Shown here piece by piece: positions 7,620-63,065 of a stretch of 64,000 nucleotides of DNA; within the stretch, counting starts at the first letter, position 1, and the number at the start of each line of letters is the position of its first letter. The notes beneath the pieces were generated by a model, which saw only the letters and a list, made by a program, of their open reading frames with translations, was not told the origin of the DNA and made no database searches. The DNA comes from a virus: IMG/VR virus record IMGVR_UViG_3300019889_000001, positions 1 through 64,000 of that record, one strand, 5' to 3'. Position numbers and translations under genes: made by a program.

Positions 7620-8050
7620 TCGTCGACAGGATGCCATTCGGCGGTCTGTTCGGGGCTGACCTCGAGGATTTCGATGCTGCGCTCGAGCGCAGCTCGCTTG
7701 CAGTCGGCCGTCCCTGCGCCGCCGGGGAAGACGACGAGAAGATCGGGTTGGAAGTCATCGAGCATCTTGCGGTTCCGCACCGGGCCCGCACCGCGGCCGT
7801 ACGACGTCCAGTCGGCGATGAAACGCTGGCGCGGAATGTCGTTGGAGTCGGCCCATGTCAGGGCCTGAAGGTCGACGCCGAGTAGACGACCGGACAGTGG
7901 CGCGAGCTTACCGGCGTCGCCGGCGGCAAGCTCGGTGATCCCCGGATCACAGAGGAGCCCGTCCACGTGATCGTGATGCAGCCGATCCAACGTGTCGTAG
8001 ACGAACTGACGGTCAGGGAACGCCCGGCCACCACATACCGCTAGACGCAT
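7616..8050 (-). CDS. YspA/DUF2493-like SLOG-domain protein
   Basis: 144 aa. N-terminus MRLAVCGGRAFPDRQFVYDTLDRL and the later DLLVVFPGGAGTADCKRAA match the two conserved stretches of SLOG-fold DUF2493 proteins, which bind nucleotide-derived ligands and occur in stress and conflict systems; the substrate here is unknown. ATG at 8050 forms TGATG with the upstream HNH stop; an in-frame TTG at 8053 is less likely. Confidence 0.75.
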   Translation of the reverse strand: MRLAVCGGRAFPDRQFVYDTLDRLHHDHVDGLLCDPGITELAAGDAGKLAPLSGRLLGVDLQALTWADSNDIPRQRFIADWTSYGRGAGPVRNRKMLDDFQPDLLVVFPGGAGTADCKRAALERSIEILEVSPEQTAEWHPVDE

Positions 8051-8637
8051 CAAGACTCCCTCGATTGCTGACGCCTAAGTCTCTGCGCCTCATTGGTGCA
8101 GAGACGGCATTGGCGTTCACTTCTCCATAGTTCACGCGGATGACCTCGGATGCAATGGGTCTTCAGTTCACCTCGAGGGTAGGAGTCCGCCCGCGGCCTC
8201 CGTCTGTTGGCGTTCTGTTCGGGAATGGTTGCCCATCGGCAGTTACTCGGCTCGTAGTTTCCATCACTGTTGATGCGATCGAGGGACCAGTAGCTCACCT
8301 TGCCCGCCCAACCAGAAGGGTCGGGCGGTCTCTCGCCCATGTCCGCAAGGAAGTTCTCGAAGACTAACCACCGGTCGCAGACTGTGATGCCCCGATCTAC
8401 GTATCCCCGTCGGCTCCTGACACGTTCTCGCATCGCGCGCCACGACCTGTAGGTCGGCAAACGTCGCTTCTCGCGCCATCCATTCACGCGAGGTGTGATC
8501 TTGTACGTGAGGCCACTAGGACGCACCGCGTGCCGGGACCGACAGAGACTCGAACAATACTTCCCCCGCCCTCGAGCTAGTAGGGCCTCCGTGGTATCAA
8601 AGACGGCCCCGCATGGGCATGTCACGCAGATCCTCAC
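8050..8637 (-). CDS. HNH homing endonuclease with zinc ribbons
   Basis: 195 aa. N-terminal ribbon (CVTCPCG ... YCSSLCRSRH), central block YWSLDRINSDGNYEPSNCRWAT typical of phage free-standing HNH enzymes, C-terminal CxxGH...CRLC finger. Such enzymes nick or cut one site and spread by homing. It sits tightly between two genes with 1-4 nt overlaps at both ends and is related to the enzymes at 37729 and 60872. Confidence 0.85.
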   Translation of the reverse strand: MRICVTCPCGAVFDTTEALLARGRGKYCSSLCRSRHAVRPSGLTYKITPRVNGWREKRRLPTYRSWRAMRERVRSRRGYVDRGITVCDRWLVFENFLADMGERPPDPSGWAGKVSYWSLDRINSDGNYEPSNCRWATIPEQNANRRRPRADSYPRGELKTHCIRGHPRELWRSERQCRLCTNEAQRLRRQQSRES

Positions 8638-11255: not shown

Positions 11256-11374
11256 GGGATCACCTTGGTTGCTTGGGTTACGTGGTTGGCGAAGGCGCCG
11301 CGGGCGGCACGGCGGGTGTCGTGGAAGTCGCTGGCCCAGCCGCATGTGCAGCGGGCGTTCCAGGCGTGAGAAAT
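11252..11374 (-). CDS. tiny zinc-ribbon protein, probable ATT start
   Basis: About 40 aa from ATT 11374: SHAWNARCTCGWASDFHDTRRAARGAF in outline, with the RCxCGW and RRAAxxAF pattern common in small actinophage proteins. Its TGA overlaps the ATG of the next gene as ATGA, which supports it being real. The frame is open back to the stop codon of the 11399 gene but contains no ATG, GTG or TTG; ATT is the first plausible start. TGA read-through of the upstream gene is the alternative. Confidence 0.45.
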   Translation of the reverse strand: MSHAWNARCTCGWASDFHDTRRAARGAFANHVTQATKVIP

Positions 11375-11398
11375 GGGTGAGTTTGAGGATGTGGAGGA

Positions 11399-11635
11399 TC
11401 ATGGGATGCGCTGCCAGCCGTACTCGGCCATGATTTCGGTGTCGACGACACGGATTTCGTCGAGATCTCGCACGAAGATGAAGATCGGGCACGTGAGCCC
11501 CTCCGAACGCAACCAGCCGGAGATGGCATCAACCATTTCCTTCTGGTCGGCCATCCGGGACGGGTCTTCAGACTTGACGGCGAGGATGAACGGCCCGTCG
11601 GGGATTGGCATGGCCTTGAGCTGGTCGGGGGTCAC
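11399..11635 (-). CDS. hypothetical protein
   Basis: 78 aa, unknown. Alpha/beta pattern with a strand PIFIFVRDLDEIRVV; GTG start in a GTGA overlap. The frame stays open for 50 codons past its stop into the zinc-ribbon ORF. Confidence 0.6.
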   Translation of the reverse strand: MTPDQLKAMPIPDGPFILAVKSEDPSRMADQKEMVDAISGWLRSEGLTCPIFIFVRDLDEIRVVDTEIMAEYGWQRIP

Positions 11636-19904: not shown

Positions 19905-20101
19905 GTGGCACCTCCCCGCGGCCAGGGCGGTCGTGGGTGTGCGAGTCCGATCCTCGTTGCATCCGCCCGGAACATCGCGGCCCGCACTTCTACCGGGAAT
20001 GCGCGACTGCCGGCTGTACCAGCCACGCTCGTCGTGAGGAACCGATGTGCCCTCGGCATGAGGACCGGGCGACGTACGAGAAATACCAAGAGGAGTCATG
20101 A
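19901..20101 (+). CDS. Cys/His-rich small protein
   Basis: 66 aa. Cysteines and histidines at CESDPRCIRPEHRGPHFYREC and CTSH...MCPRHEDR; zinc binding likely. GTG start in GTGA overlap. Shares the CIRPEHxGPH pattern with CLRPEHLGP of the 18285 gene. Confidence 0.55.
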   Translation: MSGTSPRPGRSWVCESDPRCIRPEHRGPHFYRECATAGCTSHARREEPMCPRHEDRATYEKYQEES

Positions 20102-20271
20102 GTTTCATCGTCCGCTGTTCTGATGGTGCGCAACGTCACCGCGATCCGTTTCCGACTCGCCGCCAAGCCGACGAGTTCTCATGGTGGGGTCACTGTTGCA
20201 CCAGCGAACACGAAATCATCTCCCTGGAGGAGACATGCCCGCACCCCACGATCTCGACCCCGGCGCCATGA
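20098..20271 (+). CDS. small Cys/His protein
   Basis: 57 aa: SFIVRCSDGAQRHRDPF, then WWGHCCTSEHE and ETCPHP. ATGA overlap at its start. Unknown. Confidence 0.45.
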   Translation: MSFIVRCSDGAQRHRDPFPTRRQADEFSWWGHCCTSEHEIISLEETCPHPTISTPAP

Positions 20272-20366
20272 CCGAAGCCGAGAGGCTCGCGAAACGCAGG
20301 TACCAAGCGCATTTCGCCTTCGAGATGATGCCTGACCCGCCCGACGAAGACAAGGAAGCCGAATGA
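20235..20366 (+). CDS. very small hypothetical protein
   Basis: 43 aa from the ATG preceded by GGAGGAGAC; a shorter version from ATG 20268 would overlap the previous stop by ATGA. Basic helix EAERLAKRRYQAHF then an acidic tail. Confidence 0.4.
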   Translation: MPAPHDLDPGAMTEAERLAKRRYQAHFAFEMMPDPPDEDKEAE

Positions 20367-20647
20367 GCACCCAAATCTGGAAATTCCGAATCCCCGTCGA
20401 CGGAATCACCGTCGACCTGTCCCGCCCGACCCCGATGTTCGTGGGCTGTGATCCGCGCTCGTCATCCATCGACGATGAAGATCTGCCTTCGATCTGGATC
20501 AAATGCCACTCGGATGGGATCCCCACTCGACGGCGGTACTACCTCGTTGGCACAGGCCATTCAATACCACCAGGCAACGACCGTTATTGCGGGTCCGCGG
20601 TCTGCGGGTCGTACGTGTGGCATGTCTTCGAATCGGAGAAGCCATGA
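20363..20647 (+). CDS. DUF7352-like hypothetical protein
   Basis: 94 aa. Opening IWKFRIPVDGITVDL and closing YVWHVFE match the IWKYxIP...HVF pattern of small phage proteins grouped as DUF7352; role unknown. Confidence 0.55.
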   Translation: MSTQIWKFRIPVDGITVDLSRPTPMFVGCDPRSSSIDDEDLPSIWIKCHSDGIPTRRRYYLVGTGHSIPPGNDRYCGSAVCGSYVWHVFESEKP

Positions 20648-35699: not shown

Positions 35700-35921
35700 A
35701 TGGGAAGTGGTGGCAATCCACAGTCGCCGCAACTCAAGAAACTGTTCCTCCTGGCCGACGAAATCGGGCTCACCCGCGAGGAACGGATCGAATACGCCCA
35801 GTTCCTACTTCGTCGAGACGTCGTGTCGTGGGCGCAGCTCGAGCATTCCCAGGTGTTGCGGCTCCTCGACGGGCTCGAGTCCTATCAACTGGTGACGGCG
35901 CTCATCGACCTGCGGGCCTAG
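35700..35921 (+). CDS. small helical protein on the plus strand
   Basis: 73 aa: LADEIGLTREERIEYAQFLLRRDVVSWAQL in outline. A lone plus-strand gene in the minus-strand late region. ATG 35700 is favoured over 35691 because of the -10 spacing. Unknown role; resembles small phage proteins with REERIEYAQFLL. Confidence 0.55.
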   Translation: MGSGGNPQSPQLKKLFLLADEIGLTREERIEYAQFLLRRDVVSWAQLEHSQVLRLLDGLESYQLVTALIDLRA

Positions 35922-36226
35922 GCACCGAGGAGCTGCACGACACGCTCGGCGCAGAGACTCCGTGCGTTCACGAGGCGTCCGACCTTGACACCATGTTCCT
36001 TGGCGTAGAGCTTGGCTTCCCGGCTGGCCGATCGCAGGAAGATCTTCTCGTGTTCGGTGCCGCGCCCTACGATATGGAAGTGGGTGCCCTGGAAGATGCC
36101 GGAATACGACTCGCAAGCATAATCGTCCTCGCCGAGGAGCACCATTGACCGGTCGTTGCGGACCAGATCTTCGTACTGGGCGTTCAGCTTCGCCAGCGCG
36201 CCCTTTTTGTTACAGCCGCAAGCGAT
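35918..36226 (-). CDS. hypothetical protein, ATC start codon
   Basis: 102 aa if started at ATC 36226, giving (M)ACGCNKKGALAKLNAQYEDL, the MxCGCNKK opening common in small actinophage proteins. A perfect AGGAGG lies 9 nt upstream and an in-frame stop just before it. The first ATG (36145) would drop this conserved-looking N-terminus and has no ribosome-binding site. Converges with the 35700 gene. Confidence 0.6.
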   Translation of the reverse strand: MACGCNKKGALAKLNAQYEDLVRNDRSMVLLGEDDYACESYSGIFQGTHFHIVGRGTEHEKIFLRSASREAKLYAKEHGVKVGRLVNARSLCAERVVQLLGA

Positions 36227-36247
36227 GGCTACTGCCCTCCTCGTTGT

Positions 36248-36445
36248 CTACGCCGAAACCAATGCTCGAACCCTGATCTCTGCGACTGCGCCGCGGAGTC
36301 CATCGGTGACCGCCATCGGGACGTCGCGTAGATGCGCGGCATCGTGAAGCTGGTCCTCGATGACATACGAGAGTAGTCGCTCGCAGAGCGCGAGGAGATC
36401 GCCAAGCGTGTCAGCGTCGACCGCAACCAGACGAGGGCTCTCCAT
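36248..36445 (-). CDS. small hypothetical protein
   Basis: 65 aa, helical (DTLGDLLALCERLLSYVIEDQL). ATG 36445 is 6 nt after TAACAT; ATG 36451 would overlap that promoter. Unknown. Confidence 0.55.
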   Translation of the reverse strand: MESPRLVAVDADTLGDLLALCERLLSYVIEDQLHDAAHLRDVPMAVTDGLRGAVAEIRVRALVSA

Positions 36446-36451
36446 GTCCAC

Positions 36452-36457
36452 ATGTTA
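36452..36457 (-). promoter_or_regulatory. -10 element TAACAT (in TAACATGT)
   Basis: TAACAT, 6 nt, ATG 36445; the same TAACATGT octamer as the mirrored pair at 3290-3346. Confidence 0.5.
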
Positions 36458-36464
36458 TCCACAG

Positions 36465-37031
36465 TCACTGCGCCCGTTTAGCGGTACGTCGGTGGCGGTC
36501 GCGCGCACAGACCTTACAGTGTCTCCACCCAAGCTTCGACACATACGTGTTCTCCGGGCTGAAACGATGCCCACGTTTGCATGCTCGCTGATGACGGCGT
36601 AGCCCTCCGTCGGGGCCGATGCCGCGGCGGATGTTCTCGGCGTTCGACACTGGCTCAAGATGATCCGGGTTGCAACAAGCCTCCACGCGACATAGGTGGT
36701 CGAGTACGAGTCCCTCGGGGACGGGCCCGATGAGATGCTCGTAAACCCAACGGTGTACGTAGTGAGTGAAGTTCTTGCCGAGAGCGTTGTATCCAAACAT
36801 GCCGTGATTTGACCTAGCGAACTTCGCCTTGGTCCACACCCAGCAGCCGCAATCCCACACCTCGATCTTCTTCGCCAGCTGCTCCATGAGCAGCTCTGCG
36901 GCTGGGATCGGGGTGTCTCGATATTGGTCTGCGATGTAGTGACGCCGACAGAGTCCACGCCAGTAGGCCATCATCGAGCATCCGTCCATCGAGCACCGGA
37001 CGGATGGGTCGGTCTGGCGGGTTGTACTCAT
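36465..37031 (-). CDS. HNH homing endonuclease
   Basis: 188 aa. CWVWTKAKF, HRWVYEHLIGPVPEGLVLDHLC, and CCNPDHLEPVSNAENIRR form a typical HNH nuclease core; an N-terminal CSMDGC and C-terminal CKRGH...CKVC fingers flank it. TAAGGT stands 8 nt before the ATG. Inserted between a small gene and a glycosyltransferase. Confidence 0.85.
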   Translation of the reverse strand: MSTTRQTDPSVRCSMDGCSMMAYWRGLCRRHYIADQYRDTPIPAAELLMEQLAKKIEVWDCGCWVWTKAKFARSNHGMFGYNALGKNFTHYVHRWVYEHLIGPVPEGLVLDHLCRVEACCNPDHLEPVSNAENIRRGIGPDGGLRRHQRACKRGHRFSPENTYVSKLGWRHCKVCARDRHRRTAKRAQ

Positions 37032-37048
37032 TACTAATAACCTTACCA

Positions 37049-37732
37049 CTACTTATGGGACCAGGGGCTGCCATTGCTGGGCGCCCACTTCCCGAACTCG
37101 GTGTGGACGAGTGGGCCGGTGACGAATCGGTCACGCCATCGAGGTTCGCGCAGGACCCGGTTGAACGTGGACATATCGGTCAGGTCTCCGCCATCCATCG
37201 GGTACTCGATGAGGTCGTCCAGGAGCTCAAGGACGTCTGCCCGACTGCCGCCGAGGAGCCCGGCGTTGAGGAGCACGCGATCAGGGAACTCTTCCGCCAT
37301 CGGCTTGATCGACGGATGGTTGTCGACGATCCACTTGTTGGCAACCGTGTCGTTCTCTGATCCGACGTAGAGATGGTCGGCTTCCATCATCGGCCACGGC
37401 GGGCGGTTCATCACGACGTCGGAGCCGTCGGTCATGAACACCTTGTCGACATCCGGCTGATTGTCGAGCCAGACGCGCAGGTGAACCCAGCGGGCGAAGA
37501 ACAGGTTGGTGTCGGACGACTCGACCTGGACGAACTCGACGGGGACTCGGGCCCACTGCCGGCCAATTGCTTGGTGATGCTCGGGCAGTTCGTCGTGGAT
37601 CACCACGGCGTGGCAGTCCATCAATGACTCCAGCCACTTGCGGAGGATCGTGACATCCGGTGAGTAGTTCGAGCACCCGACGCACATTGGATTCTCGATG
37701 GAGGTGAGAAGGCAGGTGGCGACGGTGTTCAA
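37049..37732 (-). CDS. glycosyltransferase-like protein
   Basis: 227 aa. VDKVFMTDGSDVVMNRPPWPM contains a DGSDVV acid cluster in the place of a DxD metal site, with FLNTVATCLLTS at the start and LLNAGLLGG later, resembling GT-A type sugar transferases. TTG 37732 overlaps the stop of the upstream HNH gene (TTGA). Acceptor unknown; grouped with two other transferases and a methyltransferase. Confidence 0.6.
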   Translation of the reverse strand: MNTVATCLLTSIENPMCVGCSNYSPDVTILRKWLESLMDCHAVVIHDELPEHHQAIGRQWARVPVEFVQVESSDTNLFFARWVHLRVWLDNQPDVDKVFMTDGSDVVMNRPPWPMMEADHLYVGSENDTVANKWIVDNHPSIKPMAEEFPDRVLLNAGLLGGSRADVLELLDDLIEYPMDGGDLTDMSTFNRVLREPRWRDRFVTGPLVHTEFGKWAPSNGSPWSHK

Positions 37733-38358
37733 GAATGGTCCCCCATCCACAAACGGCGACATGCTCGACAATGACGTACTCCAGTCTTCGGTGCCACGTA
37801 GGTGTTCTCCGACGTGTACTCATGCCCTCGACGGCAGGACGTGGCGGGATTGAGGACCCGCCTCTGGTTGGCTCGCTGGGTTACCGGGTCGGCCCATCGA
37901 CAATTGGTGGGTTGGTAGTTCCCGTCGTTGTCGATTCGGTCCAACGACCAATAGGACTTCCGACCACTCCATCCCGGGGGCTCGGGTGGCCGTTCTCCGA
38001 TGTCCTGAAGGAAACGGACAAACCCATCGATCCCCAGCCATTGCTCGCAAACTTGGACACCTCGCCCTCCGTACCGAGGGAAGGCCGAATCATTGGGATT
38101 GTGACACCGGCCCAGCATGGCCCGGTAGGCGTTGTACGTGGCCGAGGCGCGCGGATTACCGCGATGACCGTGGATTCGGTTCGCCGCCGATCCCCGTTCC
38201 CTCATCAGGCATCCACAAGAGGAGCTATCTCCACGTTGAAGCGACGAGAGAGAGACACTCTTGGTCGTCCCGCATTCACAAAGAACGAGCAGTCGGCGCC
38301 TCCCCTTGACTATCCCTCCATCGCTTTGGACGACCCACCGGCCGAACTGCCGACCCAT
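37729..38358 (-). CDS. HNH homing endonuclease
   Basis: 209 aa. Opening GRQFGRWVVQSDGG, zinc CECG...CGCLMRERGS, core SYWSLDRIDNDGNYQPTNCRW, C-terminal CRRGHEYTSENTYV...CRACRR finger. Same class as the 8050 and 60872 enzymes. Its stop overlaps the start of the glycosyltransferase. A GTG at 38367 is an alternative start. Confidence 0.85.
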   Translation of the reverse strand: MGRQFGRWVVQSDGGIVKGRRRLLVLCECGTTKSVSLSSLQRGDSSSCGCLMRERGSAANRIHGHRGNPRASATYNAYRAMLGRCHNPNDSAFPRYGGRGVQVCEQWLGIDGFVRFLQDIGERPPEPPGWSGRKSYWSLDRIDNDGNYQPTNCRWADPVTQRANQRRVLNPATSCRRGHEYTSENTYVAPKTGVRHCRACRRLWMGDHS

Positions 38359-38372
38359 AAGAGCTTCCACGT

Positions 38373-38765
38373 TTACCACGAGTCGTGCTCCGGCAGCCCG
38401 TGGAGCAACACGCCCCAGGTGTCCCGAAGTCGTTGCTTGACCGCTCGGTAGCACTTGCGGGTCCGGACCTTCAGCCGACGCTGCTCGCGGTGCCACGATG
38501 CGTTCTCGGCGCGGACCTTGGCCTGCTGCTCGGGTGAGAGCAGGTGGTAGGGGCCCTCGGCGTAGAACGTGAACTGGTTCCGAGCGAAGTCCTGTGGGCG
38601 TTGGTCAACTCCGAGATCGAGCTGACCCGTGCGCTTCTCGTACTCTGTCGGGGTCTGTCGGATCGTGCGAGCGATCCAATCCTGGCCAAAGGGGAACTCC
38701 TCCATCGGTGGGCACGGGATCGAACGACACGGGTTCGCCGCATCCGGATCTATTTCTTCGCCCAT
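38373..38765 (-). CDS. hypothetical protein
   Basis: 130 aa, unknown. Helical, basic at the end (HREQRRLKVRTRKCYRAVKQRLRD in parts). Overlaps the end of the methyltransferase by 16 nt, so it is likely from the same operon. Confidence 0.55.
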   Translation of the reverse strand: MGEEIDPDAANPCRSIPCPPMEEFPFGQDWIARTIRQTPTEYEKRTGQLDLGVDQRPQDFARNQFTFYAEGPYHLLSPEQQAKVRAENASWHREQRRLKVRTRKCYRAVKQRLRDTWGVLLHGLPEHDSW

Positions 38766-39244
38766 GCGCGCACGTCCTCTCCGAGCTGGTCGACTTCCCA
38801 CTCCGAGAAGCCCGCGGTTTGCAGAGCGAACTCCAGCTCGTCCGGCTCGATGTTGGCATAATGACCGGGCACGAGTGGGTCGTCGTGGTAGAGCCCGTGG
38901 ACCGCCCGTCCGGGTCCGGCCATCGTCATAACACACATCCCGCCATCCTCCAACATCGCGTAGATGTTGGCGAGGATCTCCCTCATCGCGGGTGTGTGCT
39001 CGAACAGCTCGGTGCACAGGACGAGAGGAACCGGCTGATCGGGTTGCCATGTCGCACCGTCGGCGACGATGTCTACGCCTGGCCCATCGGCTGCGTCGAC
39101 AACAGTCCAGCGGGCGTTCCGAAAGATCCAGCGGGCGTGACCGTTCGTCTCGCGGCCGCCGATGTCGACGGCGACGACGTCAGCAGTTTCGAGGCCAGTG
39201 ATGGCGGCGAAGTCGGCTACAAATTTGAGAGCGGCATCATGCAT
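38750..39244 (-). CDS. SAM-dependent methyltransferase
   Basis: 164 aa, short class I fold. VVAVDIGGRETNG is motif I, LVLCTELFEHTP the post-motif strand-helix, and GGMCVMTMAGPGR the next; ends at a compact C-terminus. Inside the sugar-gene cluster, so it may methylate a glycan or its carrier. Overlaps the next gene's start by 8 nt. Confidence 0.75.
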   Translation of the reverse strand: MHDAALKFVADFAAITGLETADVVAVDIGGRETNGHARWIFRNARWTVVDAADGPGVDIVADGATWQPDQPVPLVLCTELFEHTPAMREILANIYAMLEDGGMCVMTMAGPGRAVHGLYHDDPLVPGHYANIEPDELEFALQTAGFSEWEVDQLGEDVRAWAKK

Positions 39245-39914
39245 CCTGGTTCTCCGGTTCGCGTTCGGCGATGATGGCCCGCATGGCTGCGGGGTTGTTG
39301 CGGGCGTGGTAGTAGCGCTGGCTGAGCGCCGAGTTCGGCTGCCAGCGTTCGCTGCCGATGTCGCGGCAGGCGCCGTCGTGGTAAAGCGACAGCGCCATCC
39401 CCGTGTGCCACCGCGGTCGCCCGAGGATCGCTGTGGCCGCCGAGGTTAGGGCTCCATCTTCTCCGCCATATCCGGTGAAGCGTTCGTCCTGGCCGCCGCA
39501 CTCCCAGTACGACGTCGGCTTGATCGCGATGACCGACGAATCATGTTGGAGGGCTTGCCGGGTCGGCATGATCCCGGCGTGGTAGGCGGCGGTCTCCTCC
39601 TCGGTGAGGTACAGCATCGTGTCGAGCCCGAAATGGAGAAGCCCGTCGTCGAATGCCCCGAACACGGCCGCGGTCACCGCTTTCAAATCGGGGATCGTGT
39701 CGGCATCGTTGAGGACGACGACATCCGCCCCTTCCTTCTCTGCGAGCCGGACGCAGGTATTTCGGGACCCGGCCCGCGAGAACTCGGGGTGGCCGGAGTC
39801 AGCGGTCCCGAAATACCAGTTGCGGGCGTTGGTGAGATACCAGTCCCGCACCGTTTGGAACGCGGCGAGACGATCAGGGGTCGGTCTCCAGGGGCACATC
39901 ACGGTGACTCTCAT
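39237..39914 (-). CDS. GT-A fold glycosyltransferase
   Basis: 225 aa. MRVTVMCPWRPTPDR start, VVLNDADTIPD as the DxD-containing strand, and a later ECGGQDERFTGYGGED segment that matches the ED-containing loop of galactosyltransferase-like enzymes. Sugar-nucleotide donor not determinable. Confidence 0.75.
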   Translation of the reverse strand: MRVTVMCPWRPTPDRLAAFQTVRDWYLTNARNWYFGTADSGHPEFSRAGSRNTCVRLAEKEGADVVVLNDADTIPDLKAVTAAVFGAFDDGLLHFGLDTMLYLTEEETAAYHAGIMPTRQALQHDSSVIAIKPTSYWECGGQDERFTGYGGEDGALTSAATAILGRPRWHTGMALSLYHDGACRDIGSERWQPNSALSQRYYHARNNPAAMRAIIAEREPENQDA

Positions 39915-40852
39915 CCGACAATCTCCTCTAACCGCTTGATGAACCTCGTCAAGGAGTCGTCCTTGGCGAGTTGGTCTGCTCGAGCCTTTGCCCGCTTCGA
40001 TGCCGCCGCGTATTTGCGGGGGTTGTCGAGGTCTTCGATGATGTCCAACCAGGCGTCGAGGTCATCACGGTCTGCGAAGAGCCCGGCGTTGCCGAGGGAT
40101 TCCTTCAGTCCTGGCGTCGGGTGTGCGATCACGGGAATTCCGGCACACATGGCTTCGATCCCGATCATCCCCCAGGTTTCGTGATCCGATGGCATCAACA
40201 GAATGCGGGTCTTCGCCAGGATGTCGTCGCGGACGTTGCCGGTCGGCTTGATGATCGTGACGTTCTTGCGGGCCTGGCCTTCCGGCTGTGGGCCGTAGCC
40301 GCCTCGGACGCCGAGGAAGGGGCGCTTCGGGAGGTAGCGGGCGAGGGCGTCGAACGTGAGGTAGCCCTTCGGTTCGATCAAGTTGACGAGCGTGATCGAA
40401 TCGCCTGGTGTCGTCGCGAATTTGGTGGGATCGATGATGGGGTGGCACACCATGTGTTCGCCGGTGTAGCCGACGTGTTCGGCGAGACTGTACGAGTTGA
40501 AGACGGTGAGGGTTGGTTCGCCGTGCTTCACGAGGTTGTGGAACATGGTGTCATGGGTGCCATGAACGAACCGGACCGACGGGACGTGTTCCGTCATCGC
40601 GACGCGATGGAGGCGGGCGTCGTCACCGTGGATCGAAATGCAGACATCGGTGCGGGCGAACCTCGGTCGCATGTTGGAACCGAGGTGTTCGACGTGGACG
40701 CCGTCGATGTCGTATGACTTGATGTGGTCGGGAACCTGCACAATGACTTTGTGGCCAGCCGCGGCGAGCCCCGCGAGATAGCTGTGCGTCGCAATCCAAC
40801 TGCCGACACGGGCGTGGGGTGGATATCCAAGAACGAACGCTAAGACGCGAAT
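39911..40852 (-). CDS. GT4-type glycosyltransferase, ATT start
   Basis: 313 aa. N-terminal (M)RVLAFVLGYPPHARVGSWI with the following ATHSYLAGLAAAGHKVIV is the classic GT4 opening, and SDHETWGMIGIEAMCAGIPVIA is the C-terminal donor-binding motif. Between the last stop and the first domain there is no ATG/GTG/TTG; ATT 40852 is the only plausible start, with AGAGGGAG upstream. Starting at GTG 40741 would delete the first 37 residues of the fold. The start overlaps the end of the HNH gene. Confidence 0.75.
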   Translation of the reverse strand: MRVLAFVLGYPPHARVGSWIATHSYLAGLAAAGHKVIVQVPDHIKSYDIDGVHVEHLGSNMRPRFARTDVCISIHGDDARLHRVAMTEHVPSVRFVHGTHDTMFHNLVKHGEPTLTVFNSYSLAEHVGYTGEHMVCHPIIDPTKFATTPGDSITLVNLIEPKGYLTFDALARYLPKRPFLGVRGGYGPQPEGQARKNVTIIKPTGNVRDDILAKTRILLMPSDHETWGMIGIEAMCAGIPVIAHPTPGLKESLGNAGLFADRDDLDAWLDIIEDLDNPRKYAAASKRAKARADQLAKDDSLTRFIKRLEEIVG

Positions 40853-41358
40853 GAGGTGGCTCCCTCTGCGTAGAACAGGTGGAGATTACGCTTTGCTGTC
40901 TCGTACGCTGCACCGGCCTCCTCTGGGGTACTAAAGCTTCCAAGATGTTTGGATTCGCCATTCAGCCCAATGCACGCGGCCCAACGGTTCTTCTTCGGGT
41001 AGACGCCCAGCAGACCAGACTTGTTGTTTGACTTGGGACCCTGGATATTCTGAGCGTTCTGCGCCTGGGTTGCGGGGCGTAGATTGGTGATTCGATTATC
41101 CAGTTTGCAGCGGTTGATGTGATCAACACCATGCTCCGGCCACGTCCCGTAGAAATGCGCCCAGCCGAGGCGATGTGCTCGATAGGACTTGCCGTCTATC
41201 TTGATGGCCCAATACCCGCTACACAGGGGAGTGCCGGCCACGTCGCCAATTCTGATCTTGATCGCCACTCGGATCTTCCAGCGGAACACGCCAGTGTCGG
41301 GGTCGTAGTCGAGGACCTCCCGCAGGCGCTCCACTGTGAGCGTAGGCTTCGTGGGCAT
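40840..41358 (-). CDS. HNH homing endonuclease (AP2-type)
   Basis: 172 aa. LTVERLREVLDYDPDTGVFRW start, HNH_3-type RAHRLGWAHFYGTWPEHGVDHIN core, NNKSGLLGVYPKKNRWAA AP2-like DNA-binding end. Close relative of the enzymes at 59574 and 62547. Preceded by a promoter and hairpin leader shared with 62547. Ends inside the start of the GT4 gene. Confidence 0.9.
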   Translation of the reverse strand: MPTKPTLTVERLREVLDYDPDTGVFRWKIRVAIKIRIGDVAGTPLCSGYWAIKIDGKSYRAHRLGWAHFYGTWPEHGVDHINRCKLDNRITNLRPATQAQNAQNIQGPKSNNKSGLLGVYPKKNRWAACIGLNGESKHLGSFSTPEEAGAAYETAKRNLHLFYAEGATSFAS

Positions 41359-41363
41359 CGGAC

Positions 41364-41422
41364 ACCTCCGTTGTGTCTGGTCGGTCCCGGCACGTTCACG
41401 CGTGGCCGGGACATTCATCCTA
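41364..41422 (-). promoter_or_regulatory. promoter and 5' hairpin leader of HNH gene
   Basis: Minus strand: TAGGAT (41422-41417), GAATGTC, then stem GTCCCGGC (41412-41405) / GCCGGGAC (41391-41384), CCGACCAGACA, GGAGGT (41369-41364), ATG 41358. The order and sequences match the leader at 62485-62541. Confidence 0.65.
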
Positions 41423-41505
41423 CTCATGGGGATGTAGGGATGTCAGAGTTAAGGAGCCCACGCGGGCATACGGCGCATACCCCAGCTGGAAGCCTAAAAT
41501 CCGAA

Positions 41506-41799
41506 TCACGTGGTGGTTGGGATGTTCGGGTCGGCGAGCAGCGCGGTACGGGTGGCGACGTCGAAGTTGCCGTTCGGCGCCCCGTCGTAGAACCCGTCTT
41601 TGATGAGCTGCTGCTGGAGTAGGGACACACTCGAGCGCATGTCGTTCCCGTAGTACCCGTTCACTCGGCCCTTGTAGTAGCCCAAGTCAATCAACAGGCC
41701 TTGCAGCTCGCGGTTCTTCGTGGACGGCATCCCACCGGGCTTCGATGCCGGTGGGACAGTCACGGGCGGCAGGGGACGCTTCGAGGAGGTGGGAGGCAC
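41506..41799 (-). CDS. peptidoglycan-binding domain protein
   Basis: 97 aa. NRELQGLLIDLGYYKGRVNGYYGNDM and IKDGFYDGAPNGNFDVATRTALL repeat the PG_binding_1-type pattern of alternating helices and GxxG turns. Pro-rich N-terminal spacer. GTG start 6 nt after TACCCT. Likely cell-wall targeting helper in lysis or a virion-associated factor. Confidence 0.65.
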   Translation of the reverse strand: MPPTSSKRPLPPVTVPPASKPGGMPSTKNRELQGLLIDLGYYKGRVNGYYGNDMRSSVSLLQQQLIKDGFYDGAPNGNFDVATRTALLADPNIPTTT

Positions 41800-41805
41800 C
41801 CTGAC

Positions 41806-41811
41806 AGGGTA
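41806..41811 (-). promoter_or_regulatory. -10 element TACCCT, leaderless promoter
   Basis: TACCCT, 6 nt, GTG 41799. Confidence 0.4.
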
Positions 41812-41842
41812 GCCGATGGTGCGAGTGCCGGGATGACGTCCG

Positions 41843-41941
41843 CTATTCCCAACGGGCGCCTGGCGGGAGGGGGGTGAAGAATCCGCCGAGCCAAGCGATC
41901 AGCCCGCAGCCGACCACGGCGAGGACGGCGACAAGACGCAT
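41843..41941 (-). CDS. tiny membrane protein of the lysis cassette
   Basis: 32 aa: MRLVAVLAVVGCGLIAWLGG then FFTPLPPGARWE. Single span; Cys in a VVGCG context could be lipidated. Start forms TGATG with the upstream stop. Confidence 0.45.
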   Translation of the reverse strand: MRLVAVLAVVGCGLIAWLGGFFTPLPPGARWE

Positions 41942-42372
41942 CAGTCGGGCGGGCTGTCCGCCGGTCCGATCTCCTGAAGTTTGGTTTCAGCTTCGCTGTT
42001 GCGGACCAGGCCGAAGTACGAGCCGATCGCTGCGAGGAATGCCAGGAACGCCGACTTGAGGGAGTCGACTGATATCACTGATCCGCCGCCGTCGATCATG
42101 CCGACCGTGACCAACCCTGCGACCGCGGAAAGCGCAAGGGTGAGCACCTTCTTGAGCCAGGCCGCAGTGCTCGCTTTCGTGACGAGCGCGACGAGCGCCG
42201 GGATCAATGTCCCGAGGATCATCGTGACGACGAACGGATCGAGGTTGAACAGTGAGTCAGCCGTCGAGTCCGGGCCGATCGGAGTGTCGACGGGAACTTG
42301 GGCGAAGGCGACCGTCGGGGCGGCGATCCCAAGGAACACCGCGGCGAAGACCGCGAACAGCTTTGCTTTCAT
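41941..42372 (-). CDS. holin-like membrane protein with signal peptide
   Basis: 143 aa. KAKLFAVFAAVFLGIAAPTVAFA signal, then spans FVVTMILGTLIPALVALV, VLTLALSAVAGLVTVGMI and FLAFLAAIGSYFGLV; charged tail. Small, multi-span and next to the lysin genes, it is a holin candidate. GGTGGAG lies upstream of ATG 42372. Confidence 0.55.
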   Translation of the reverse strand: MKAKLFAVFAAVFLGIAAPTVAFAQVPVDTPIGPDSTADSLFNLDPFVVTMILGTLIPALVALVTKASTAAWLKKVLTLALSAVAGLVTVGMIDGGGSVISVDSLKSAFLAFLAAIGSYFGLVRNSEAETKLQEIGPADSPPD

Positions 42373-42411
42373 GCCGTCATTCTCCACCATCCAACACGTC
42401 AAAGGCCACTC

Positions 42412-43329
42412 TCATGCGGCGTCGCCGTACACGACTTCGCAGGTGATTTCGCCGATCGGGTTCGGCTGCGTGCAGTTCACTGCGATCACTTCCCGCGCCG
42501 GCGCGCCGGGTAGGCCCGTCGCGCCGGGCTGACCTTCCGGACCCGGAGGCCCCGGAATGGCGCAGGTGCCGGAGCCGCCACACCATGCGGCCATCGCGAC
42601 GTCGACCTGGGCTTGCGTGAAACACTGGCCGGCCCCACACGACGACAGAACGACTTGGGCTACCTCTTCGGCGGTTGGAGGTCGCCCGGGCTCGCCTGTG
42701 GCTCCCTGCGCGCCGGTGGCGCCGTCCTCGCCGGGCATTCCGGCACAGTTGCCGGGCTGTGAGCAATGTGCGACAACGATGGCGGAGAGCTGTTCGTCGG
42801 TGATCGCTGGAGCATCGACACCTGGGGCCCCAGTTCCGCCGGATGGCCCGGGACCTCCTGTCCCGCCGGTGTCACCGGTCGATCCTGGGGGACCGTCGCA
42901 GACGTCGCTCGAGGCACAGACATCGAAGACGATCGGTTCGACGAGGGCGCGGACTTCGGCGAGGTCGAGGACTTCGGTGACGATGACCGGTTGCGCGGTT
43001 GGGGGTCCGGCCTGCTCGGGCTCGGTCGGTCGGGGCATCGAGGTGTCCGGCATGATTTGCTCGATAGGGACGTCGTTCTCTTCGGCGGCATCCACCACGA
43101 TCTCGGCGGGGGTCGGCACGGAGACGTCAGGCGACTCCTCCTGGAGGACGTCGTAGCCGTCGGTGAGCCGTTCGATGACCTGGTTCTGCGCCTGATCCGC
43201 CACCGACCCGTCGGTAACCGCGTCTTCCAGGTCGGTCATCCGGCCCGCGAAGGTGAGCCCGATGATGAAGATGAAGATGGCAGCGGGAACGGGCCAGCCA
43301 ACAGCGATGATGGTGCGTAGGCGGCTCAC
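42412..43329 (-). CDS. membrane-anchored collagen-like protein
   Basis: 305 aa. N-terminal span (TIIAVGWPVPAAIFIFIIGLTFAG), an acidic linker, then three blocks of Gly-X-Y repeats (GPPGSTGDTGGTGGPGPSGG; GEDGATGAQGATGEPG; GPPGPEGQPGATGLPG) separated by Cys-containing helices (CASSDVCDG, CSQPGNCAG, CGAGQC, CGGSGTC). GTG start inside the end of the preceding gene region. Could trimerise and be cross-linked by disulfides; function unknown. Confidence 0.65.
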   Translation of the reverse strand: MSRLRTIIAVGWPVPAAIFIFIIGLTFAGRMTDLEDAVTDGSVADQAQNQVIERLTDGYDVLQEESPDVSVPTPAEIVVDAAEENDVPIEQIMPDTSMPRPTEPEQAGPPTAQPVIVTEVLDLAEVRALVEPIVFDVCASSDVCDGPPGSTGDTGGTGGPGPSGGTGAPGVDAPAITDEQLSAIVVAHCSQPGNCAGMPGEDGATGAQGATGEPGRPPTAEEVAQVVLSSCGAGQCFTQAQVDVAMAAWCGGSGTCAIPGPPGPEGQPGATGLPGAPAREVIAVNCTQPNPIGEITCEVVYGDAA

Positions 43330-58700: not shown

Positions 58701-59571
58701 TCTGGTAGGCGCGTTCGTCGCGGCTCAGCGCCGACGAGATGGCACGGGACACAGCGCCCAACGACGACGTGATGCCGCGGCCGATCGTCGCCAAAGCGCG
58801 GTTGGCTCCCGTGGCGAAGGTGGAGACCGTCCGGCCGAGTCCCGAGAAGATCGTGGAAACCGTCCGGCCGAGCCCGCGCAGAGTGGTTCCGGCTATGTTG
58901 ACGAAGCCGCGCACGGCGCGCTCCGCAGATTTCCAGGTCAGTTCGAAGACGCGGGTGAGTGACCGTTCGATCTGGAGGGCCTGTTTCGAGAAGGCTTTCA
59001 GGAGGGCGACGCGCTGCGCCGACGAGGCCCGCAGGGCGGCGGACTGTGCCTGCTGGTTGGAGATGACGGTGCGCTGGATCTGAGCTTCGGCTTGGAGACG
59101 GTCACGGTTCTGCTGATCCTGAGAACGGGTCGCGGTGCGGGCCGACGTGGCGAGATCTTTGAGGAGGTCGCGCTGCACTCGGGTCGCCTCGGACAGGTCC
59201 TCCATGTTGTTCGCCATCGCAGAGATCTGTTCGGCGAGAACGTTGAACGACCGGTTCGTGCCCGACGGGAACTTGGTGGCGTCCGTCGCGGCCTTGCCGA
59301 CCTTTTTGAACGCGTCGGTCATCGCCTTCGCAGCCCGGTTGGCCTGCTTGACGGTTTCGTCGAAGGCCTTGTTTGTCGTCTTCGGGATCTTGCCGAGTTC
59401 TTTGATGATGCCCGCGACGAGACTCGTGACGGCTTTGCGGACCCGGGGGTCGTTCATCGCTTGAGCTAGCGCGTCGGAGAATGCGTCCTCGACTTGTTTG
59501 GCGCCGGGCTCCGCATTCGCGTTGATGTCAACGGTGATTTCTCCGTCGCCACCTCCTCCGAAGGATGCCAT
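52780..59571 (-). CDS. tape measure protein
   Basis: 2263 aa; sets tail length and is threaded through the tube. Tape-measure N-terminal core around RTTRFDFTEVAGSVAQLTAAFG and GGTQQFAAARLAFSQI, typical of the TIGR02675 domain; long Ala/Gly-rich helices, many hydrophobic Gly stretches, and three imperfect repeats with FLGPxxxFFRGPFA (DNA about 56690-57115). The start at 59571 gives MASFGGGGDGEITVDINAN; the longer ORF to 59703 overlaps the HNH gene. By the usual 0.15 nm per residue the tail would be about 340 nm. Confidence 0.9.
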   Translation of the reverse strand: MASFGGGGDGEITVDINANAEPGAKQVEDAFSDALAQAMNDPRVRKAVTSLVAGIIKELGKIPKTTNKAFDETVKQANRAAKAMTDAFKKVGKAATDATKFPSGTNRSFNVLAEQISAMANNMEDLSEATRVQRDLLKDLATSARTATRSQDQQNRDRLQAEAQIQRTVISNQQAQSAALRASSAQRVALLKAFSKQALQIERSLTRVFELTWKSAERAVRGFVNIAGTTLRGLGRTVSTIFSGLGRTVSTFATGANRALATIGRGITSSLGAVSRAISSALSRDERAYQTSMSRRERALTASLSRQAQAQQRFQAQQQSGILGGLGLAGAAGGLSLGALLTSGFTRAGQEESLELQFTTLLQSGPKATAMLQQISDYARTTRFDFTEVAGSVAQLTAAFGDADRAFDTVTFLSDLVSLTGGGTQQFAAARLAFSQIAASGRLEGQELNQLLESIPGVPLVSILADRFFGGDQAAFQKARRDGDLGGAITADAFFEALQEGAAARFPELEGFSQKVGQSLGGLADNLRENFAIFGAEIIGLVEGPLKRGMGALNQFLSAAGGFISGSMFSRDRGKNPFADLAATDPNAEVNILDLPPAAQEVLRAQFGFTDENFVSAEDAAEIWENFTPPAETNERLKQFRDSLGDAAKAIGGVLALAGGFKILRLALIALTSPLGLTVLAAGGLGALFGRIRDSSLRLRGALAGLKPAFAGLGEAVRGLLEFVGGIASSAIFGNQNFFKSLGDRVAGFVQSLRRGIVSLTNWVKMFEFFLRIGEGGRFLADTLQDIGRAIGDFSESIVTSLFGIEPGEAMFAEARGGNDFLNLLETTFLGPFVEFFRGPFANAIEGIGGFGGDIFSAIFGGGGAGAGKATADQSVGTRVLNVLEQTFLGPITEFFRGPFADLVETIGGGIADFGGFLGDIFNALFGDDPGGVGTRILNVLEDTFLGPIVRFFRGPFANGVSNVVGFIGDVIGTIAAAIQTGLTLIEPLTDAIGNAIQGLFGGNDTEGKSLGADGGGVDLGGIWDGLTTSLGNITEEVGDALGPVWDAITAWFASTFSSANVIGVAKDIGNIIREVGRVLGLFVSDPRFVIALAVTAAALLAAIGAALLGVFEGIAENADEWGNILLDGLGVAFDFIKTEGPGLLTDAIGAILSDPAVGLTVAVGALIIGTSAGRGLLGGLVGIFRNRTESAKLKNAVTSGIAQAGLGGAVTDGIAQTKLSAQIPVRFRDQLATVGRSIGSAVVGGLIAFEAGNLAGQSGSFGGLVLGLLTGGATGAAIGTSIAPGVGTAIGAVLGTAVAGLGALFGSQAREAEKAAEKVSTYVDALRDLSGIEIGQGISELILNSLSEAGPDAFAAWGDALVNMADFDFVAFGDRLTEGISTPADEATRFLQGLADEAAALDDVGLTGAQFEDFIALVDELGLNLAEIGDLDPQRLLDLGMDQSQIDLLNRGNEILGLLGITEGDLANIHGVLAGESDAVAKALAQIGLDAELATTDVKKLNDTDVSAIKGAVGDVVVPLDDLKDAANDAQAALEDLLNIGSYGGSFQALADEFALGLPNVNEQILSALEGVAPADQAAAIRQAVGPFRDSIADLFGQAVDEGLVTNGAEMDSFLNGLRQQIVDADLTPEAELLMLEAVNALDTPEARALVKEKAQAVMLAVAAELGTAGTEGKGRFMEIGAQAADDVLAGAVAGAGGGTYPQAREIGTKIAGGIAEGISSSKEVANAITASVTGTTKTRAKSPSSVGVTVDDRGIAQARDVTSRIVATLIAGAVQALRAATAIGSAITAGITGGSSGAASAAARPAAAAVSAVRVYNIAMYSAGANLTNAMAQGISSQAGQAANAAANVAAIVAAAARAKLKIRSPSQVFFDIGTQIGQGFVQGIQDAEGDMAQAMGDAIEGAIAKGTERAGEAMRKAQVGSAIFGALTPSLIPGGTSLSASSQRVIQEYQRAQGIYGQFRSAASESLGSRTAGGLEKAQVGINLALLQFQDAFTSIAQEWNDAWHLRAGTNNEGVAQPLSLRQQNILATGPAALSQGTFAGSANREALASAIASITEWGRAALEAGSSAGGVTDTMNAYVNALRNQAASLGFNVAQVDEVIAAYGVSSAALAQWRQQLTALDFSAEGLANNALILEQLESIRGFATEMLEAGQSADQVVSNLRGFRDNLVNSAIAFGFNATQIAALVEQVGLSDTALANFIQQIRDFEAAAAGAAAALPGANDQAPRPTIENLNLVVPYGDPEAIGLAVLNRVAFETLGG

Positions 59572-59573
59572 GG

Positions 59574-60101
59574 TTATTCCACTCGATCCCAGAATGGATG
59601 CAGTGCGTTCTTGGCGGCGAGGTAGGCGGTAGAAGCTTCCTCCGGTGTGGCGAAGGCGCCGAGGTAGTACTTCTGGTGATCGACGACGATCTTCGCCTGC
59701 CACCGATTGCCGTTCGGGGCGACGCCGAGGTACCCCGCCTTGTTGCCTCGTTGAGGGCTATGTTGGTTCTGTGCGTTCTGCGTGTCGGGGTCTTCGCGCA
59801 GATTGGCGATCCGATTATCGTCTCTGCGGCCGTTGCGGTGGTCGAGATCGATGGACGGCCAGACACCGTAGATGTACAGCCACGCCAGATGGTGGCCCCT
59901 TCGACTTACCCCATCCAGTTCGATCACGCGGTACCCATTCGGATTAACACAGCCCGCGCGACCGCCGGGCCGGACGCGACATGCGGCTGGGTGGGGGCGT
60001 TTCCGCCATTGGAACACCCCTACGTCGGGATCGTAGTCGAACACCTCGCGCACCCGGTCGGCTGTCGGCGGTGGATACCGAGAAGCGCGCTTGAATGCCA
60101 C
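59574..60101 (-). CDS. HNH homing endonuclease (AP2-type)
   Basis: 175 aa. ADRVREVFDYDPDVGVFQW, core RRGHHLAWLYIYGVWPSIDLDHRN, AP2-like GNKAGYLGVAPNGNRWQAK. GTG start 6 nt after TAGAAT. Ends 2 nt before the tape-measure ATG, which may depend on it for ribosome delivery. Confidence 0.9.
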   Translation of the reverse strand: MAFKRASRYPPPTADRVREVFDYDPDVGVFQWRKRPHPAACRVRPGGRAGCVNPNGYRVIELDGVSRRGHHLAWLYIYGVWPSIDLDHRNGRRDDNRIANLREDPDTQNAQNQHSPQRGNKAGYLGVAPNGNRWQAKIVVDHQKYYLGAFATPEEASTAYLAAKNALHPFWDRVE

Positions 60102-60871: not shown

Positions 60872-61390
60872 TTACATCCTTGTGGTGGTGGAGTGGGGTT
60901 GACGTCGCCGTTGGTTCAATCGTTGTTCGGTGGGTGTGGACCACCGACAGTTGGCTGGTTCGTAATCGCCCTCCGGGTCTCGCCTATCCAGCGACAACCC
61001 CTCAGGTCTGCGTCCCAGGTCGGCGAGGAAGTTTTCGAACGAGGCCAACCACCGGTCACAGACGTGGATGCCGCGACCGCCGTAGTACTTCCAGTCCTTG
61101 TTCTTTGGGTTGAGGCAACGACTCTTCATCGCTTGCCAAGAGTTGTAGGTCGGTGTTCCGCTCATGCCGTGGGTTCGGTAGTGGGTTCGGTTGTTGGATA
61201 GGCGACTCCGATGTCGGCCGCAGCCACAGGAGCGCGACCGACCCGACTTGAGATTTTGATCCGTGACGACAGTCTGACGCCCACAATCACACCGGCATTC
61301 CCACTGTGTTCTCGCTCCGGGTCGCTTGACCCGCAGTAGGACCTTGAGGCTTCCATATCGTTGCCGTACTCTTATGGGTGGGGCGGGCAT
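60872..61390 (-). CDS. HNH homing endonuclease
   Basis: 172 aa from ATG 61390 (182 from 61420). CRCDCGRQTVVTDQNLKSG with CGCGRHRSR fingers, then GLSLDRRDPEGDYEPANCRW core. Third member of the 8050/37729 class. Ends 4 nt before the chaperone ATG. Downstream of a palindrome at 61396-61424. Confidence 0.85.
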   Translation of the reverse strand: MPAPPIRVRQRYGSLKVLLRVKRPGARTQWECRCDCGRQTVVTDQNLKSGRSRSCGCGRHRSRLSNNRTHYRTHGMSGTPTYNSWQAMKSRCLNPKNKDWKYYGGRGIHVCDRWLASFENFLADLGRRPEGLSLDRRDPEGDYEPANCRWSTPTEQRLNQRRRQPHSTTTRM

Positions 61391-61395
61391 TGGGT

Positions 61396-61424
61396 TGACA
61401 TGGTAACCGCTTCCTACCATGTCA
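61396..61424. promoter_or_regulatory. palindrome TGACATGGTA/TACCATGTCA
   Basis: Perfect 10-bp arms (61396-61405, 61415-61424), 9-nt centre. The minus-strand arm is part of TGACATGGTAGG, also found at 35224. TACCAT is 9 nt before ATG 61390. Likely operator/promoter. Confidence 0.6.
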
Positions 61425-62546: not shown

Positions 62547-63065
62547 ATGGAACCGAAGCCTACGCTGACGGTGGAGCGGCTGCGAGAACTGCTCGACTAC
62601 GACCCCGAGACCGGCGAGTTCCGGTGGAAGGTGCGAGGCAAGGGTCGCCGAGTTGGAGTCTCGGCTGGGGGGCGGCGGGATAATGGTCTTCATCGGATCA
62701 TGATCGACGGGGCCCGATTCAAGGCGCACCATCTCGCCTGGTTCTACGTTTACGGCGTATGGCCGACCGGCATCCTCGATCATCGGAACGAGACCCCGGC
62801 TGACAACTGGATCTCGAATCTACGCGAAGCCACCGTGACTCAGAACCAGCAGAACAGGAGCCGCGCCTGTTCTGATAGCCGGACTGGCTTGTTGGGCGTG
62901 AGCGCCAACGGGAAGGGGTGGCAGGCGCGCATCGTCGTCGACGGCAAAACGCGATGCCTCGGAACCTACGCCACACCAGAAGAAGCCCACCACGCTTACC
63001 TGGCGGCCAAACGGAAGCTACATCCGTTCTGGCAGGGCTCAGATCAAGAGAGGCCCCCAGCGTAA
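62547..63065 (+). CDS. HNH homing endonuclease (AP2-type)
   Basis: 172 aa. LTVERLRELLDYDPETGEFRW, core KAHHLAWFYVYGVWPTGILDHRN, AP2-like SRTGLLGVSANGKGWQAR. The only HNH gene on the plus strand, between two minus-strand tail genes. First 20 residues nearly match the 40840 enzyme. Confidence 0.9.
   Translation: MEPKPTLTVERLRELLDYDPETGEFRWKVRGKGRRVGVSAGGRRDNGLHRIMIDGARFKAHHLAWFYVYGVWPTGILDHRNETPADNWISNLREATVTQNQQNRSRACSDSRTGLLGVSANGKGWQARIVVDGKTRCLGTYATPEEAHHAYLAAKRKLHPFWQGSDQERPPA

Follow-up and report, generated by a model that had tools for sequence, protein, structure and literature searches.

How can a gene be translated when no ATG, GTG or TTG lies between the upstream in-frame stop and the point where its protein should begin, and what is the origin of such a gene? 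This question is raised by two minus-strand genes in a 64,000-nucleotide stretch of viral DNA (hereafter the window), which forms positions 1 to 64,000 of IMGVR_UViG_3300019889_000001, a 69.7-kb uncultivated virus record assembled from a metagenome. One encodes a GT4 glycosyltransferase and has ATT (40852) at its N terminus; the other encodes a small CGC protein and has ATC (36226). The original prediction, which placed both codons correctly and noted the missing canonical starts, had grouped them with a third case (ATT 11374) as a single phenomenon. Comparison with the relative G001 (IMGVR_UViG_3300021408_000002 of IMG/VR; 70.2 kb), which is collinear with most of the window genome at ~74-98% DNA identity, separates the three: the ATT is tied to an HNH insertion, the ATC is a one-base difference, and 11374 results from an indel. 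An ab initio codon-usage census of 105 coding segments gave these three positions as the clear cases without a canonical start near the onset of coding, and it revealed no other well-supported gene of this kind. We consider it likely that the GT4 gene was invaded at its 5' end by an HNH homing-type gene that brought with it a foreign, diverged copy of that end, the ATC being a separate matter; that an HNH insertion replaced the GT4 5' end is, taken by itself, highly probable.

Along the minus strand, the GT4 locus begins with a lysin-type gene (41506..41799) encoding a peptidoglycan-binding domain (Pfam PG_binding_1; 5e-12). Its TGA stop (41508-41506) overlaps a GTG at 41509 as GTGA (the G001 junction reads TGACGTG), and this GTG opens a stub of the original GT4 5' end (41452..41509; peptide MIRILGFQLGYAPYARVGS). 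The stub reads GTG ATT CGG ATT TTA GGC TTC CAG CTG GGG TAT GCG CCG TAT GCC CGC GTG GGC TCC T, ends after codon 19, and is followed by unrelated sequence. No Shine-Dalgarno (SD) sequence precedes its GTG and the two genes overlap there; thus, GT4 expression was presumably coupled to the lysin-type gene. Next come a leader hairpin (GTCCCGGC...GCCGGGAC; 41375..41412) and an HNH endonuclease gene of 172 aa (40840..41358; SD CGGAGGTG), which matches Pfam HNH_3 (2e-13; 50.1 bits against a curated cutoff of 24.8) and PHROG 99 (E = 1.5e-66). The HNH copy at 62547 and its G001 counterpart each have a similar leader upstream; over the whole stretch, the leader does not fold better than its shuffles (z = -1.4). 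The HNH gene has no counterpart at the same place in G001, which is the presence/absence pattern of a homing element. Its TAG stop lies inside the GT4 gene, with an overlap of 13 nt. The intact GT4 gene (39911..40852; 313 codons) matches Glyco_trans_1_4 (2e-11) and PHROG 26352 (8e-70), the latter over residues 1-309, i.e., from the ATT codon on, and begins with a substitute 5' end (IRVLAFVLGYPPHARVGS; 40799..40852).

The evidence for a replaced 5' end comes from comparing the stub and the attached end with the G001 GT4 gene over 17 aligned codons. The stub is identical to G001 at 44 of 51 bases and at all 17 residues; the attached end is identical at 29 of 51 bases, 12 of 17 residues, and 5 of 17 third positions (Fisher p = 0.002 for bases and 0.04 for third positions, stub versus attached end). 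The two peptides are nevertheless homologous to each other, their score being reached by 0 of 20000 shuffles. Since the stub is G001-like and the attached end is diverged but homologous, the intact GT4 gene is a hybrid. By sequence comparison, its 5' end is foreign, conserved in protein but diverged in DNA, and is joined to a resident body.

We propose the following course of events. The lysin-type stop and the GT4 start would originally have overlapped as GTGA, as is still seen in the stub. The break in the recipient GT4 gene would have followed GGC TCC T (codon 19), with the HNH gene and the donor's GT4 5' codons becoming joined to the recipient GT4 body; the junctions are seen in the window, and homologous repair of a cut is the presumed route. 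The resulting order (stub, HNH gene, hybrid GT4) is that observed. In homing in general, an empty allele is cut and repaired on the donor template, with co-conversion of the flanks (PMC2988022). Here, the putative enzyme would cut near the 5' end of its target, the right side would be repaired inside the gene, and the donor 5' codons would travel along. Recoding, exemplified at the GT4 junction by the serine codon TCC becoming AGT, would block recutting while the protein is kept, and the occupied allele is probably resistant to the enzyme through its recoded 5' end.

The start codon itself lies at 40850..40852, 7 nt after AGAGGGAG, and is putative. The G001 gene opens with GTG AGG ATT TTA and the window gene with ATT CGC GTC TTA; the frame is closed by a TAA 12 codons 5' of the ATT, and its first canonical in-frame start is GTG 40741, at residue 38. 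We expressed SD strength as a pairing energy and compared it with those of 39 canonical starts and of internal ATT/ATC codons. The SD before the ATT (-6.3 kcal/mol) is beaten by 11 of the 39 canonical starts and matched by ~10% of internal ATT/ATC codons. The ATT entered together with the HNH insertion or arose by a later change, and two histories may be envisaged. Given its alignment with the G001 GTG, the ATT may have been an ATG that changed at one base; alternatively, a longer N terminus (MIR...), as in the stub, may have lost its first codon, leaving the ATT as the former codon 2 (the codon preceding the ATT is CTC, where the stub has GTG). Under either history, no near-cognate codon is better placed than the ATT. 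As the hybrid gene lacks a usable ATG, GTG, or TTG, the ATT is its most likely translation start, and we rather favor its use by ribosomes, as far as can be judged from the sequence. Initiation would be led by the SD and supplemented by reinitiation of ribosomes ending the HNH frame, and the GT4 yield would probably be low. RNA folding near the ATT and near ATC 36226 revealed nothing remarkable. A phage-encoded initiator tRNA with a changed anticodon was considered and rejected, as the window contains a single tRNA-Arg and G001 contains no tRNA. A PDB search matched mainly the C-terminal domain and is thus uninformative on the N terminus, and an AlphaFold model from two sequences had a pLDDT of 30, too low for use.

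Several points weigh against this account of the GT4 locus. Further into the GT4 gene, third-position identity to G001 is low as well, so fast local divergence could be part of the reason why the attached 5' end differs. There is just one relative: searches of viral_contigs by protein, by alignment, and by DNA motif gave G001 only, genome_contigs contained no GT4 relative, and a search among phages gave a single match (Streptomyces phage TurkishDelight; 35%). The donor allele was not found, and the source is an assembly of metagenome reads. The SD before the ATT is good, not exceptional. The nuclease activity and cut site of the HNH protein are predictions from sequence, and we infer both the use of the ATT and the production of a hybrid GT4.

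The CGC gene (35918..36226; 102 aa) presents a different case. It opens with ATG GGC TGC GGT in G001 and with ATC GCT TGC GGC in the window; a TAG lies 8 codons 5' of the putative ATC start, and no canonical start comes before ATG 36145, at residue 28. The relative thus has its start at the same codon position for both genes, and the expected ATG was found there for the CGC gene but not for GT4, which has GTG. The ATC sits 9 nt after AGGAGG, and its SD (GAGGAGG; -10.6 kcal/mol) surpasses those of all 39 canonical starts (best, -9.9 kcal/mol) and of all but 0.3% of internal ATT/ATC codons. No insertion accounts for the change. Either an independent one-base change turned ATG into ATC, and the resulting start depends on an exceptionally strong SD, or the ATC is a sequencing error, as it may well be: judged by sequence, its real use is an evenly balanced matter, and a one-base metagenome assembly error is about as likely. 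The CGC protein has no match among phages and belongs to no Pfam or PHROG family. Its G001 counterpart (L002:7021-8286) holds an intein (Pfam Intein_splicing) between ...DDPYE and CAAYSG..., ending ...VHN, which the window copy lacks; an intein in a protein of ~100 aa of no known family is unusual.

An error that altered an ATG, at ATC 36226 and perhaps also at ATT 40852, is the alternative that survives best, although we consider it rather unlikely as the overall explanation. A single base separates each codon from ATG, the record was assembled from a metagenome, and an indel at ~11366 breaks another gene. Nothing specific speaks against an error at the ATC; its flanks differ from G001 at several places, and the window sequence is therefore not a simple copy with one error. 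At the ATT, the insertion context is independent of the questioned base.

Alternatively, the insertion might have deprived the GT4 gene of a working start, so that it is decaying, with little or no expression, and the ATT is an ordinary codon within it. HNH insertions can carry a cost, no canonical start is present, and CTC has taken the place of the stub's GTG. Against decay, the 313-codon frame is intact and its product is 89% identical to that of G001, the attached end keeps the protein while its DNA differs, and an SD lies at a good distance from the ATT. We regard decay as improbable.

In the original prediction, the rare start codons may keep the two genes low on purpose. Its premise agrees with the literature, in which AUU and AUC starts are rare and repressed by initiation factor 3 (IF3) (PMC5472188). 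The infC gene starts with ATT in Escherichia coli and with ATC in Streptomyces, Streptomyces sigR starts with GTC, and both genes are known to be controlled by IF3 (PMC5472188); use of the ATC at 36226 would thus be plausible in an actinobacterial host. The window genes resemble infC and sigR in the type of start codon and in SD-led initiation, both codons being one third-position change from ATG, with no canonical start at a conserved N terminus and an SD at a working distance. However, the infC and sigR starts are conserved or experimentally shown and IF3-regulated (PMC5472188), whereas those of the window are putative and differ in G001, the sole relative, which has ATG in the CGC gene and GTG in GT4. 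Moreover, the ATT sits at an insertion scar, and the very strong SD before the ATC opposes low output. Maintained regulatory starts tied to initiation-factor levels, and with them the idea of deliberately low expression, are therefore very unlikely.

A frameshift or readthrough that would fuse GT4 to the HNH frame, and the CGC protein to the preceding 67-aa open reading frame (ORF), is less probable still. A stretch of ~46 nt is open in the HNH frame as well as in the GT4 frame, and a single TAG separates the 67-aa ORF from the CGC ORF, which share a frame in the window; however, no slippery heptamer was seen in the HNH/GT4 overlap, and the corresponding ORFs are in different frames in G001, so readthrough is not conserved. 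Least plausible of all is removal of the HNH region as an intron or intein, with GT4 starting at the stub GTG (41509): the stub does represent a true GT4 start, complete with the ancestral overlap of stop and start, but the attached end, still a GT4 peptide, would need to be removed as well, an Rfam scan of 35800-42500 gave no intron or other match up to E = 1, and the stub and HNH frames are closed by stops, which precludes an intein, HNH_3 being the sole domain found.

The third case, ATT 11374, does not stand as a start codon. It lacks an SD, as the original prediction had noted, and alignment with G001 rules it out. The G001 counterpart opens with ATGACC (an ATGA overlap with the preceding stop) and stays in a single frame as far as ...WNARCTCGWAS.... 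This ATG (11402) is retained in the window, and the ORF (11350..11402, minus strand) really opens there, but an indel (TCACGCCTGG versus TCCCGCTGG; net one base when a 12-base tandem repeat in G001 is ignored) shifts the frame, so that ATT 11374 merely lies in the displaced frame. This frameshift is either real decay or an assembly error. The small ORF is Zn-ribbon-like, and the 12-base tandem duplication of G001 is located at the same place.

Cultured phages show the anatomy of the GT4 locus with ordinary start codons, the endolysin locus of Salmonella Jerseyviruses being, in sequence comparison, the clearest parallel. In SE2, LPSE1, and VSe101, the endolysin gene is uninterrupted and its product begins MSNRNISDNG. 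In SETP7, SB3, and S138, an HNH gene starts with the ribosome-binding site (RBS), the ATG, and the first ten codons of the endolysin. The endolysin gene then opens again, from a new RBS (GGGAGG or AAGGAG) and a new ATG that leads into recoded codons. The endolysin 5' ends read ATGAGAAACATTAGCAACAACGGC in SETP7 and SB3, ATGCGCTCGATGAGTGACAACGGC in S138, and CGAAACATCAGTGATAACGGA in SE2; two different replacement ends thus exist. The HNH-bearing version is covered to at least 80% by 16 of the 346 records that hold part of this locus. More broadly, among annotated cultured phages with related HNH genes, the HNH stop overlaps the next start by 4-23 nt in 8 of 11 codirectional contexts. Stub self-similarity in the other cultured contexts was clear for SETP7 only, with borderline scores in X14 and Nobby_B4. 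In Acinetobacter phage Fri1, the DNA polymerase gene is annotated as HNH interrupted, and the HNH stop overlaps the start of the second part by 8 nt; this is a candidate for either the same rescue structure or a split enzyme.

Among known systems, the fungal mitochondrial mORF hybrids of Allomyces atp6 and Glomus atp6, atp9, cox2, and nad3 (PMC3630166) are similar in having an endonuclease ORF within a gene, a diverged, protein-conserved replacement end, and a native remnant nearer to the relative. The native remnants are 91-98% and the inserted ends 64-81% identical to the relative (PMC3630166), and GT4 shows the same relation (44/51 versus 29/51 bases). In the fungal cases, however, the 3' end and C terminus are replaced and the elements are mitochondrial LAGLIDADG or GIY-YIG ORFs (PMC3630166), none of which applies to GT4, where the 5' end and start codon are replaced by a phage HNH element. 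By analogy, the fungal hybrids are a mirror image of the GT4 hybrid seen in the DNA. The freestanding HNH (mob) genes of T4-like phages (e.g., mobE in Aeh1 nrdA and mobA in T4 gene 60) likewise involve no intron or intein, overlap their neighbors, lie in some cases within coding genes, and co-convert flanks, but they split a gene into two polypeptides or are intergenic, and no donated replacement end is described for them (PMC2988022). An HNH with a ShiLan domain in an actinophage methylase is also inside a coding gene and neither intron nor intein; it is read through in the methylase frame, with the HNH ORF out of frame (PMC11855218), whereas GT4 restarts after the HNH gene. We found no description of a 5' version in phages in the open-access literature, which is weak evidence of novelty.

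The usual picture of freestanding phage homing endonucleases is that they lie between genes or split genes; in GT4 and in the cultured Salmonella phages, the element appears to rebuild its target gene through the donation of a new, recoded 5' end that has a start of its own. We tentatively suggest, with confidence just short of an even balance, that phage HNH genes include distinct, widespread, intron-free homing elements that cut the 5' end of a gene, often seize its RBS and start, and provide a built-in rescue in the form of a recoded 5' end that has a new start. If so, they would be a natural counterpart of "recoded rescue" gene drives, and the ATT would have arisen as a side effect of a rescue that came with a weak start codon. 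Such elements would explain how HNH genes can enter important genes, such as those for the tape measure and endolysin, without phage death, as well as the frequent overlap of HNH stops with the start of the next gene. Caution is due where odd start codons or displaced gene starts occur next to HNH genes, as they can be insertion scars, and HNH-plus and HNH-minus Jerseyviruses are ready-made test pairs.

Within the window, several other HNH-type insertions that are missing in G001 end flush with, or overlap, the start of the next gene. At 59574..60101 (minus strand), an HNH gene starts with the ancestral tape measure codons GTG GCA TTC; directly 3' of its stop, a new tape measure start (59569..59571, minus strand) opens ATG GCA TCC TTC GGA, where G001 has GTG GCA TTC GGA. 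The stub self-similarity test gave nothing for the tape measure, as the donated end is just about three codons. At 37729..38496 (minus strand), the TGA stop of an HNH-type gene overlaps, as TTGA, a new TTG start (37732) of a glycosyltransferase-type gene, which in G001 is ATG. Two further HNH-type insertions missing in G001 are located at 8050-8637 and 60872-61396; the former starts at a GTGA overlap, where G001's own next gene starts with ATGA. Conversely, another gene of G001 carries an in-frame HNH close to its 3' end (L008:8346-9035; window counterpart, 20076-20367), and this HNH (L008:8492-8984) is nearer to the ShiLan type (PMC11855218) than to the GT4 case. A stretch reading AFEM is duplicated on either side of it, and the window copy of the gene is uninterrupted.

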